Positions 22,174 to 28,063 of a stretch of 46,950 nt of DNA are shown one piece after another. Made by a program: the position numbers and the translations under genes. Origin of the DNA: Cochliopodium minus (Eukaryota > Discosea > Himatismenida > Cochliopodiidae). The stretch is taken from positions 1-46,950 of the forward strand of contig JAMYWO010000263.1 in assembly GCA_024220525.1 (NCBI GenBank). Reading direction: 5' to 3'. Numbering within the stretch: the first letter of the stretch is position 1; each line of letters opens with the position of its first letter. Under the pieces are notes generated by a model. It was not told where the DNA came from and ran no database searches. It saw only the letters and a list, made by a program, of their open reading frames with translations.

Positions 22174-25065
22174 TTAAATATCACTATCAGTACAAAAAAA
22201 TTTTCCTATTCTGACAAAATCTTTGGTGTAAGTCTGAGAAACAACAAGACGGACACCATTCTTCGGATTCAAACGGCTGATGTCCAAAGACTTTTGGGCA
22301 GACTTATTATCGTTGGATTCGATGATAAATCTGTTGGAAATAAGGTCAATGGTGAGTGAAAGACTCATCACTTTTCCTGATCCAAATTCTCTTGCAACCA
22401 CTTTTCGTTTCAAAAAAAAAAAAAAAAGAATTTATATTATTGATTATTAATTGAAAAAATAAATTATGAAAATATGAAAAAAATAACAATAAAAAAATTA
22501 TTACTTCCACTTGCATTTCCAGCATGACAGTATGAACTATTCATTTTTGTTATTGAGATTTGGATTAAATTATAAAAGAAAAAGAATAATTAGAAAAATG
22601 GTTTTTACTTCCAATCAGAATAATCCGCTGTTGCAACACCTAAAGAAAAATATTGATTTTAATATTATCAAAAATATCAATAATTAAAAAAAATAAAATT
22701 TAAAATCATTTTTAAATTGAAATAAAAAAAAAAAAATTTATATTTTTCTTTTTACCAAATGTGAAATGTCCAGCATGCTCTGTATAATAAGAAACATCAA
22801 CATAAAATATTTTTTTTCCAAAAAAAATGTTTTTAGAAACAGCAGTCTTTGTTTGATTGTGTCCTCGATACTGTATAGTGCTGCTCTGTATGATATTGAA
22901 AAAAAGGCGGTTGTTATTGTTGACGCTCCATTCAAAATGGGTTTGGAATTTGAGGTAGATGTAGTACTTGCTGAACATATTTTCTGATTCGTCCAGATTG
23001 AGTTGTTTGCAGAAATAATCCACGTCTTCTTCTTGGACGTAGCCACATTGGTTGAAAACTTGATTCTTCCATACTACTTCAGAGATTTCCTGTTGAAATA
23101 TAAAATAATTTTAAATAAATTTGATGAAAATTTTAATTATTTTATTATATTGTTATTTTTTTGTTTTATTTTTATTTAATTATTTTTTCATTTTATTCTT
23201 ATTTTTTTTTCTATAAATGTATTTATTTATTTATGTTTTTTGAAAATTAAAAATATTTATTATTAAATTTTTGATTCTTTTATTTTTTTGTTACACACTA
23301 TTTTTGATTATTTTTTTATAATTATTTTATTTAATAATTATTTAGTTTTTTTTTTTTCCATTGAAAAAATTACCGATGAAACAATGATCATAAAGAAGAA
23401 TGTATTGACACTAGTAAGTCTGATAAGAGTTTTGAGATCAGCTTGTAGTAAGATGCTCATGAGGATTTTAGTAGGCAGCCTCTGAAAGGGCTCCTCATCG
23501 AAACCCTTTTTATTGTCGAACACTCTCAACAATTTCTCATATTTTTTGTCGACTTTCTTGTAGCTTTTGAATGTGAGTTTTGTGATCTCCAACGAGTCAT
23601 TTTTGTACGTTTGAGAAACTGCCAACCTTAATCTTTTTTTTAATCAAACAAAAGCAAACATGAAATAATTTTTAAAATTATAATATTTTTGAATTTAAAA
23701 ATGTTTTTTATTTTAAATTTTTATCTTATTAAATTTTTAATTAAAACTATACATTTATTTTTATTTCAAAAATCTCAATTTATTATTAAAATTTCAATTT
23801 ATTTTAAAATATTTATTTTTTCAAATACATTTTTTATATTTTAAAGATTTTTTTACCCATTTGCAGGAACCAAGTTTACCAAGTCAAAATTTCTTACATT
23901 GTTAGGATTGTCAAAATCGTATATTGATATTTGATTTTCCAGTAAATCCAAAATTATTTTCAATTTGATTAATCTTTTAGATCCAAAATAACTTGCAATT
24001 ACTTTTTTGTATAAAATCAAAAAAATAAAAAATCAATAAATTAATAAATAAGAAATAAATAAAAAACTTTTACTTCCTTTTCCAGTTCCAGTGTGGCAAT
24101 AGCTACTAAAATTGTCAAAATCTTCTTTTACAACACCTTTTTAAATTGAAATTTTACAAATTTTGAAAAAAAAAACAAGAATTCATTGTTGCTTAATATT
24201 TTAAAACAAAAATAATTGATATAAAAAATTTTTAATGATGATTTTCTTTGGATTTTTTATTTATTAAAAATTTTGATTATATCTTTTTCAATAATTTACA
24301 CTAATTCTTTTTTATTTTTTTATTACCTATGGTGTAATGATTAGGATGTTCGGTATAATAACAGACATCCAAATAATAAACTCTGGGTCCTTTAAATATA
24401 TTTTTAGAGACAATAGTTCTCGTCTGAGAATTGGCGATATACTCTGCCTTGTTGTTCTTCGGAAAAGAAAAATTTTTCGCTTCTCCCTTCTCTTTGTCCC
24501 ACTCAAAGTTGTTGAGATACTTGAAGTAGATGAGATATTTGTTCATCTTCTTCTCCAACACATCTAGTTGTGCCTTTTGAAGGAAATCTTCGATTAGATC
24601 TTCTTTGATGCTTTCTTTTGTGTCCAGATATCTTTGTATCATGCATTTCCAGATCAAGGAGGCTCCTGATGAATCTATCAGGAATTTGAAGAAGAATTTA
24701 TTCAGCCTGCTTATCACTGCCAGATCCTTTGCTTCCAGATAGGAGATGATATGCGTAATTATTATCTTTGGGAATTTTTCTATCGCTGATGAGGCCACCA
24801 CTTTATCCCATTGAAGGAATATTTTCGAATATATCTCTATCTTTTTCTTTTCTGATTGCCTCAATTCACTCCGCTTTGATATCTCGTGATATTTTCTTTT
24901 CTGTAGTTTATGTTATTTGAATATATAGGTGATAAAACATATTGTATACTATATAATTTTGTTTTGATGCAGTATAATACTGAAATATATATTCTTTTAT
25001 GGAGGAAATATATTTTCTTTTTTAATCATAAAAAGGAGTATTGTTTTTACAAAAAATTCAAACAT
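22174..25065 (-). CDS. F-box/SPRY/F-box/SPRY tandem-module protein, 557 aa
   Basis: Nine exons: 25051-25065, 24327-24900, 24074-24136, 23857-24001, 23374-23626, 22756-23089, 22609-22639, 22505-22536 and 22174-22400. All phases agree. F-box 1 near 46-90 (IEKFPKIIITHIISYLEAKD) is followed by a SPRY-like domain (SKNIFKGPRVYYLDVCYYTE, SSYCHTGTGKG, LVPANGLAVSQTY). Then F-box 2 (RLPTKILMSILLQADLKTLI) and a second SPRY (SKNIFFGKKIFYVDVSYYTE, SYCHAGNASG, LNPKNGVRLVVSQTY). F-box proteins of this kind recruit substrates, through SPRY, to SCF ubiquitin ligases. The junction exon 23374-23626 holds the end of SPRY 1 and the start of F-box 2, which supports one fused gene. The 15 bp first exon is the least certain. 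Confidence 0.8.
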
Positions 25066-25536
25066 GATATCCTATTTCAATATATACTTCAGTTAATGAT
25101 CAACCAATCTATGTCACAATTTTTTTTTTCGAATCCTCTTTGAAAATTCTCAATTATTATTTTAAAGGGTTAAAAAATGCAACAATCCTTTGTTTATCAA
25201 ACCATTAGGTGATGAATGGGGCAAATAATAAAAAAAAAATTTGGAATTAAATTTTGAAAACATATCTCCCAATTTGAAGAATACTTTAATAATATCAACC
25301 TCCTTTACTATTTACTATTAAAGTAAATATCAATCTTTTACCACAATTTTCGAAAATAATTAATTGTTATTTCATTTCAAAGAACAAAATCTATCGAAAT
25401 TAAGATTTTGAAATGAAGGTTTGATTAAAATTCTAAATTGATTATTTGAATTTAGTGGAAAATAGGCTTTATAAAAATAAACAAAATAAAAAAAAATAGA
25501 TATTCTAATTTTGAACCCAATATAAAAAAAAAAAAA
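25066..25536. promoter_or_regulatory. divergent spacer between F-box/SPRY gene and CCT7
   Basis: 471 bp of A/T-rich DNA between two divergent starts. Short open frames occur (24910-25143, 25372-25554) but look random. A 12-A run directly precedes the CCT7 start codon. No clear promoter motif or RNA gene is visible. Confidence 0.4.
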
Positions 25537-28063
25537 ATGAGTCATTTTCTTCAACCAACCATCGTGCTTTTAAGAGAAGGTACCGATACAAGCCAAGGTA
25601 TCCCACAATTGGTAAGCAATATAAATGCATGCAGCACCATAGTGGAAGTATTGAAAACAACATTGGGACCAAGAGGAATGGATAAATTGATATATACACC
25701 AAATGGAAAAGCAACTATATCAAACGATGGTGCAACAATCATTAAATTATTAGATATTGTTCATCCTGCAGCACAAACTTTGGTAGAGATTGCCAAATCT
25801 CAAGATGATCAAGTTGGTGATGGTACAACAAGTGTTGTTATTTTGGCAGGTGAACTTTTGAATCAATGTAAAGAATTTGTTGAAGAAGGTGTTCCACCAC
25901 AAATCATTATTAAGGGTTTTAGAATGGCTTGTCAACTTGTAAGATATATTAAAAATATTTTTTTTGAATACTTAATTATTTCTCCCTTTTTTCATAATAA
26001 ATCAATACCCTATTAAAGCAATTTATCATTAAAAAAAATGATACTATTAAATAATCTCAAATATATCCTATAATAACATCTCAATTTAATATCCCTATCA
26101 TTTTTAAACCATTTTCCCTTTGTAGGCTATTCAAAAGATTAAAGAAATATCTGTTAAACAAGAAATACAAGATGAAAAGTAAGCAATAATTCCAAAATAT
26201 ATTGATTTCTTAAAAAATAAAATCCAAATTATAACAATATCATTCATGAAATCTTTAATTCATCAAATTATGGAACTCATCAAACAATTTATACTTCCAT
26301 GATAGACAATTTATCTTTCTTAATCCTATCTTTCAAAAATATTAATTATTATTTGATAGATCATTGAGAATTATGCTCGAAAGATGTGCATCAACATCTA
26401 TGAATTCTAAATTGATCAACAGTTACAAGGAGCATTTCTCAAAAATGGTTGTAGATGCAGTTCTCCATCTTGATTCTCACGATATGGACATCAAAATGAT
26501 TGGAATCAAAAAGGAGAAGGGAGGATCTTTGGGAGAATCTCAAATGGTTGAAGGAGTTGCGTTCAAGAAGACATTCAGTTATGCTGGATTCGAGCAACAA
26601 CCAAAGAAATTCGAAAATCCAAAGATTTTATTGTTGAATGTCGAATTAGAGTTGAAATCTGAGAAAGAAAATGCAGAAATCAGAATCAACGATCCTATTG
26701 AGTATCAATCTATCGTAGAAGCAGGTAAAACATCAAACTCCTTTTTAATTTTTTTTTCTTATTTATCTTTTCAATATGAAAATTGCTTTATAATTGACAA
26801 TTATTTCTCTTATTTTTATTGTGATAATGTATTGAAAATTTATCTATAAAAGATCGATAAAGGATAAATATTAATAAACATATAATGAATGGTTCTCTTT
26901 GATATCAAAGATTTCTTTTATTAACAATAAATAATTCTGATCTCTTTTTATGATCAATTAATTCGATTTAATCATTCTTTTCCTTTTATAGAATGGAACA
27001 TTATTTATGAGAAATTGGATAACTGCGTCAAAACAGGAGCAAAGGTCATCCTCTCCCGCTTGGCTATCGGAGATCTCGGAACCCAATACTTCGCAGACAG
27101 AGGCCTCTTCTGCGCAGGTCGTGTCTCCGGAGACGACTTGAACCGTGTCATGTACGCCTGCGGTGGGTCTGTCCTCACAACCACCAATGACATCAGAGAA
27201 GAATCTTTGGGTAGCTGCGGTGTCTTTGAAGAAAAACAAGTAGGTGCAGAACGTTATAACTTTTTTTCTGGCTGCAAACAAGCAAAGTCCGTCACTATCC
27301 TTCTTAGAGGTTGTGGTGAACAGTTTACTGACGAGGCTGAGCGTTCTCTTCACGATGCCATCATGGTTGTTCAACGTGCTCGTAAGTTCAACTCTTCTGT
27401 CGTTGCTGGGGGTGGTGCTATTGAGATGGAATTATCTAAATATTTGAGAGAATATTCCAGATCTATCGAAGGTAGTTTTTTTATTTTTTTTAATTTATTT
27501 TTTATTTTTACATTTTTTTTTATTTTTTGATTTTTTTTTTTTTAAATTTTTTTAAAAGGAAAACAACAATTGATCATTTCTCGTTTCGCTCAAGCTTTGG
27601 AAGTCATCCCTCGTACTTTGAGTGATAACGCTGGTTTTGATTCAACTGATATTTTAAATAAATTGAGATTTGAACACGCAAAAGGTAAAACTTTTTATTT
27701 TAATACATTTTTTTATTTTTTTGATTTTCATAATATTTTTATTTTTTTATTATTTAATATTTTTTATTTTTTGATAGGACCTGAAGGAAAATGGTTTGGT
27801 GTAGATATTAACAGCGGAGGTATCATTGACACTTTCAATACTTTTGTTTGGGAGCCTTCAATTGTTAAAATCAATTCTATCACTGCTGCAAGTGAAGCTG
27901 CTTGTTTAAGTAAATATTTTTTTTTGATTATTTTATTTTTTTAATTTTTTTTAATTTTTACAAAATGTTTTTTATTGTTGGATATTTTTTATTAATTTTT
28001 CCCCCTTTAGTTCTTGCTATTGATGAAACTGTTAAGAATCCTAAATCTGAAGACCCTAAATAA
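25537..28063 (+). CDS. CCT7: T-complex protein 1 subunit eta (CCT7), cytosolic chaperonin subunit
   Basis: Subunit of the eight-membered TRiC/CCT ring that folds actin, tubulin and WD40 proteins using ATP. Exons 25537-25938, 26126-26178, 26360-26724, 26992-27471, 27559-27684, 27778-27909 and 28011-28063 give 536 residues, near the usual 543. Family signatures: [30 protein letters not shown], the ATP motif [31 protein letters not shown], the second nucleotide motif [17 protein letters not shown], and [15 protein letters not shown]. The VLHLDSH and KKEKGG.L.ES..VEG.AFKKTF apical-domain segments are eta-specific. Exon 4 starts with a marked run of C-ending codons (27020-27240), unlike exons 1-3. 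All introns are GT-AG. Confidence 0.97.

Follow-up and report, generated by a model that had tools for sequence, protein, structure and literature searches.

A predicted gene with two F-box/SPRY-like modules in one frame, and a second gene of the same layout, in Cochliopodium minus

Background

F-box receptors normally carry one F-box, and some of them act as dimers. Cdc4 and beta-TrCP are dimeric SCF receptors that dimerise through a D domain.

An F-box followed by a SPRY domain is the layout of FBXO45 which, according to a passage of PMC4359269, recognises its substrate Zeb2 through the SPRY domain, cannot enter the usual Cul1 complex and has Pam as its partner. Soybean provides a precedent for two F-boxes per protein: GmFBX505, named among 725 aligned soybean F-box proteins, is described as having two F-box motifs in a passage that is silent on SPRY and on doubled modules (PMC5412402). 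The terms 'two F-box', 'multiple F-box' and 'SPRY' are absent from the available portion of a Caenorhabditis F-box survey (PMC8665587). The first-pass annotation of the locus described here knew of no doubled version of an F-box/SPRY protein, and none was listed in our searches of open-licence PMC; for the F-box alone, GmFBX505 shows that doubling is not without example.

We report a predicted gene that joins two F-box/SPRY-like modules in Cochliopodium minus. The window, by which we mean the whole stretch of 46,950 nucleotides analysed (contig C262 in our numbering), is AT-rich. The genome searched comprises 44.65 Mb in 598 contigs.

Results and discussion

A single open frame joins two modules

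The doubled gene is predicted on the minus strand at positions 25065-22174, with nine exons encoding a protein of 559 residues. All introns are GT-AG and the splice phases are consistent. The exons, in order of transcription, are as follows.

Exon 1, 25051..25065, minus strand: MFEFF with the start codon, 15 bases, the weakest exon of the model
Exon 2, 24327..24900, minus strand: N-terminal helix, F-box 1 (from about residue 47), linker region and first strands of C-terminal domain 1
Exon 3, 24074..24136, minus strand: YCHTG block of C-terminal domain 1, flanked by intron positions common to the paralogs
Exon 4, 23857..24001, minus strand: IILDL strand region of C-terminal domain 1
Exon 5 (fusion exon), 23374..23632, minus strand: last strand of domain 1 (LRLAVSQTY), junction, N-terminal helix and F-box 2
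Exon 6, 22756..23089, minus strand: remainder of F-box 2, linker and first strands of C-terminal domain 2
Exon 7, 22609..22639, minus strand: VATADYSDW
Exon 8, 22505..22536, minus strand: NSYCHAGNASG
Exon 9, 22174..22400, minus strand: last strands of domain 2 (NGVRLVVSQTY) and stop

The GC content of the exons ranges from 0.26 to 0.42, save for exon 1 at 0.13, and that of the introns from 0.08 to 0.20. The MFEFF mini-exon is homologous to MFDFLKKKFNDY, the single-exon start of the second doubled gene described below, and this homology supports it. The exon borders of module 2 were re-derived by a splice-aware profile aligner that we wrote and trained on the two window modules, which scored 1447 and 1365, compared with 80 or less for 72 reversed sequences.

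Analysis of the sequence thus confirmed the predicted doubled gene, with two F-box/SPRY-like modules end-to-end in one frame. One gene with two homologous modules is what the first-pass annotation had proposed, and the joined frame, the consistent phases and the 34 % identity between the modules over 240 aa bear it out, with the length of the protein corrected from 557 to 559 residues. The exon given there as 23374-23626 does carry the last strand of module 1 together with F-box 2, but its acceptor lies at 23632. Acceptor 23626 was rejected as it drops two residues; we prefer 23632 because the resulting NGLRLAVSQTY restores the NG.RL.VSQTY match with NGVRLVVSQTY of module 2. Module 2 does have the additional intron noted for its YCHAG region. 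Module A of the second doubled gene has a phase-2 intron one codon from this position (after exon 7), suggesting that module 1 of the window gene may have lost an intron there.

One alternative explanation is that two separate tandem F-box/SPRY-like genes are joined only in appearance. Separate tandem copies do exist in this genome, where neighbours on C48, C451, C513 and C79 each start at a separate ATG (for C79, three of the four starts were seen), and if the 224-base intron were retained, module 1 would end after PANG. Against this, the last strand of module 1 and F-box 2 share one open frame in exon 5, a stop closes that frame just upstream, the first in-frame Met lies about 10 residues into F-box 2, and the layout of the exon recurs in the second doubled gene. 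A separate second gene would therefore lose about the first 10 residues of its F-box, barring an unseen 5' exon. On this sequence evidence it is unlikely that module 2 is a gene of its own, and we regard the explanation by two separate genes as very improbable.

A second gene shares the doubled layout

The layout of the window gene is found again on the minus strand of C190 (70428-67992), in a gene encoding a predicted protein of 547 residues that is 37 % identical to the window protein when aligned end to end. The two proteins have a common N-terminus (MFEFFKRKYHEI, MFDFLKKKFNDY), and in C190, too, the last strand of module A (FTKDMFEVKSF) lies in an exon that runs on into F-box B. The doubling in the window is thus not a one-off.

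Between the two genes, identity at codon positions 1, 2 and 3 is 0.52, 0.66 and 0.33, where 0.28, 0.31 and 0.26 are expected by chance. These values are similar in both C-terminal domains and lower in F-box 2 (0.36, 0.55 and 0.33), and the junction shows no conservation (7 % over 28 columns). The doubling appears genuine, old and retained. The reading as two genes is less strictly excluded for C190 than for the window, since intron retention leads there to a stop after AVTQT and the following exon starts with an in-frame ATG.

Single-module paralogs and tandem groups

When the same genome was searched at the protein level, module 2 gave 58 matches and module 1 gave 82, including weak ones with E up to about 0.3. 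From these, a script derived 56 F-box loci on 41 contigs; merging the intron-split pairs of C15 and C48 by eye would leave 54. Gene structure was read at the loci of the best 30 matches of each protein search and it is therefore conceivable that further doubled genes exist. The splice-aware aligner gave ten full-length modules, namely the two of the window, the two of C190 and those of six single genes (C2, C9, C48, C61, C99 and C472). At most of the remaining loci the match covered the F-box and linker.

The six single-module paralogs have the F-box, the linker, the C-terminal domain and two intron positions in common with the doubled genes. These are the phase-1 introns k173 and k194, present in all ten full-length modules (k173 is one codon off in C190 A and k194 one position off in C48). 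The paralogs differ in having one module, which in all six ends with a stop 3-5 residues past the homologous last strand, and in an F-box intron (k63) found in five of the six and in none of the four double modules. Of the ten modules, only the first module of each doubled gene has an intron towards the end of the C-terminal domain, and its place differs between the two genes (k243 and k251).

Seven groups of adjacent F-box loci on the same strand are present in the genome, of which two are fused (window and C190); such groups would be raw material for fusion. The tandem groups on C48, C451, C513 and C79 were considered as doubled genes and rejected on account of the separate ATG of their copies. 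The group on C215 (14742-11155, minus strand; loci L021, L022 and L063) is a possible case, with two near-identical F-box copies about 1.57 kb apart. By eye, the first looks decayed, with broken frames in its C-terminal part, and the second has an open frame without an in-frame Met, with an MGN start in another frame just upstream.

Repeats of the C-terminal domain of this family are also observed, at C75:147045-150544 (plus strand) and C19:66042-64611 (minus strand), loci L026, L027, L034, L020 and L029, and no F-box was seen in the stretch read. On C75 two copies of the domain are continuous in one frame and PQQ-rich stretches stand beside other copies. Among viral contigs, 69 stretches matched a pattern and none was confirmed as a relative.

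The doubled genes start with MFEFF and MFDFL. Many single-module genes start with MGN (loci on C15, C48, C50, C79, C180, C424, C451, C472 and C513), which we take to resemble a putative N-myristoylation signal, and other starts are found on C9, C61, C99, C27, C42 and C22.

Neighbouring genes in the window

The MGN start is also seen in the window at 22041-21583 (minus strand), in an ORF with a Sec7 domain (Pfam, 41 bits) that begins about 135 bases downstream of the doubled gene. Two further ORFs on the minus strand, 21104-20445 and 19539-18868, appear by eye to be paralogous to one another, and Pfam matches neither at E up to 0.01. Among the neighbours, at 25456-26016 (plus strand) and 37615-36317 (minus strand), are a TCP-1 chaperonin gene and one for a ubiquitin carboxyl-terminal hydrolase.

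Both modules contain F-box-like sequence

Pfam matches F-box in exon 2 (F-box 1) with 15.9 bits, under a cut-off of 20.5, and F-box-like in exon 5 (F-box 2) with 19.3 bits, under a cut-off of 24.3. At E up to 10, F-box-like matches all nine modules scanned, a set without C472, the best at 1.1e-4. A profile of the N-terminal part of the family, built from the ten modules, was compared to a small F-box alignment consisting of the eight best Pfam hits of this genome and two PDB stretches, and matched it with a probability of 97 and an E value of 6.7e-11 (score of 57.3, compared to 14.8 for the highest of 50 shuffles). The four best matches of the family profile in PDB are F-box/WD proteins (E from 0.027 to 0.21). 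Taken singly, module 1 matches the F-box with a probability of 93 and module 2 with 74. Despite Pfam scores below cut-off, these comparisons support the presence of an F-box in both window modules, as first proposed.

F-box 2 is thus weaker than F-box 1 by profile comparison and higher by Pfam. It is conceivable that one F-box works and that the second module serves as a scaffold, its SPRY-like domain widening or tightening substrate binding. The lower profile score of F-box 2, its QADLKTL sequence where most aligned members have a YL..KDL-like core, and the longer branches of the second modules in the ten-module tree would all suit this reading. The higher Pfam score of F-box 2 and the YLPVSDL core kept in F-box B of C190 point the other way. 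We consider a single working F-box a real possibility, though less probable than not; it would be a variant of our preferred explanation and not a competitor to it.

The C-terminal domain is probably SPRY

A SPRY domain in both modules had been part of the original proposal, and here the evidence is divided. Pfam SPRY matched none of the nine modules, and the eight chains that the family profile matched in PDB at E up to 10 include no SPRY chain. With hhalign, the C-terminal domain scores 17.84 against SPRY compared to 17.4 for the highest of 50 shuffles and, with more rows, 17.78 with two of 60 shuffles higher. As these scores are at the level of shuffles, we set the direct profile link to SPRY aside. 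The predicted fold of exon 2 alone has a mean pLDDT of 41.7, which is too low for use.

The link to SPRY comes instead from F-box/SPRY paralogs that bridge the two. On C337 the same F-box is followed 1.5 kb downstream, on the same strand and perhaps in a separate gene, by a Pfam SPRY match above cut-off (31.7 bits); weaker matches to SPRY, under the cut-off, lie on C15 and C169. Intermediates hand-joined from pieces of C513, C169, C15, C337 and C130 match SPRY with a probability of 96. The C-terminal domain scores 19.41 against the intermediates (one of 40 shuffles higher) and 18.98 against SPRY and intermediates together (17.89 for the highest of 60 shuffles). When 755 ORFs were compared with the C-terminal profile, the top two were a strand of C513 (E of 0.038) and C130 (E of 0.054), both in register and both earlier read by us as SPRY.

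Alternatively, the domain may be another beta-rich domain, making this an F-box protein of another class. The Pfam and PDB results and the shuffle-level scores would suit that explanation; the SPRY matches on C337, C15 and C169 and the in-register ORFs do not, and we judge it unlikely. With the paralogs as a bridge, we judge it probable that the C-terminal domain is SPRY.

Origin of the doubling

The ten-module tree unites the four double modules in one clade (100/100) and pairs window 2 with C190 B, the second modules, at 91/93. In the best topology window 1 and C190 A do not group as sisters. The four double modules also stay together (88/82) in a tree of the C-terminal domain that includes three SPRY-only copies. 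Constraining window 1 with window 2 costs 7.4 log units (p of 0.10) and C190 A with C190 B costs 6.5 (p of 0.10); the crossed constraints give p of 0.039 for window 1 with C190 B and 0.055 for window 2 with C190 A.

Could the two doubled genes result from independent doublings of related single genes? The trees that keep the modules of one gene together are not rejected, and the introns near the end of module 1 lie at differing places. The BLAST scores between genes are 195 bits for window 1 and C190 A, 157 for window 2 and C190 B, and 150 and 147 for the cross pairs; within genes they are 166 for the window and 149 for C190. By this measure (166 compared to 157 bits) window 2 is nearer to window 1 than to C190 B. 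However, the second modules pair in the best tree, the N-terminus is common to both proteins, and intron k63 is absent from all four modules. Independent doublings seem improbable to us.

Fusion of tandem genes followed by duplication of the fused gene would fit the layout, the tree and the positions of the stops in the single genes. Such a fusion is the simplest origin, and we infer it as the mechanism. The internal duplication initially suggested for the locus is upheld by the two homologous modules and can be refined: what was joined end to end would be whole single-module genes.

Conclusions

We hypothesize a fusion of two single-module F-box/SPRY-like genes that lay next to each other, head to tail. 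With the first gene deprived of its stop and the second of its start, the strand at the C-terminal end of module 1 would lead directly into the helix that begins module 2. A later copying of this doubled gene would have given those of the window and C190, in both of which the two modules appear to have been kept as coding sequence. The doubled protein would most likely be a substrate receptor of a Skp1-cullin ubiquitin ligase, with at least one F-box docking on Skp1 and the two SPRY-like domains binding two sites on one target, or two targets. Exon-level matches to Skp1 (6) and cullin (29) in the genome make such a role plausible. We consider this scenario as a whole, from tandem fusion and later copying to a Skp1-cullin receptor with two SPRY-like domains, to be reasonably probable.

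If both F-boxes work, one chain would bring two ligase arms and be a covalent counterpart of dimerising F-box proteins, in line with the bivalent receptor with two Skp1 contacts that the first-pass annotation suggested. This stronger form, a covalent dimer with two working F-boxes, two substrate domains and two Skp1-cullin arms that arose by tandem-gene fusion and was kept in at least two genes, is put forward tentatively and we hold it to be doubtful. If one F-box alone works, the gene would be a milder case of domain gain. Tandem copies followed by fusion are in either case a likely route to new layouts in a large F-box family, and a tandem encoded by a gene raises directly the question of whether two ligase arms per chain alter substrate range or chain building.

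Compared to known systems, the window protein resembles FBXO45, as far as the passage describes it, in the order of F-box then SPRY. The FBXO45 type has a single F-box followed by a single SPRY domain, whereas the window protein joins two modules in a single frame, and Pfam SPRY does not match its C-terminal domain. With GmFBX505, as presented in the soybean passage, it has two F-boxes per protein in common. The likeness to the dimers of Cdc4 and beta-TrCP is that two F-boxes and two substrate domains per complex would result; those receptors reach this state through D domains, while the window protein would do so, if it works in a dimer-like manner, within one chain.
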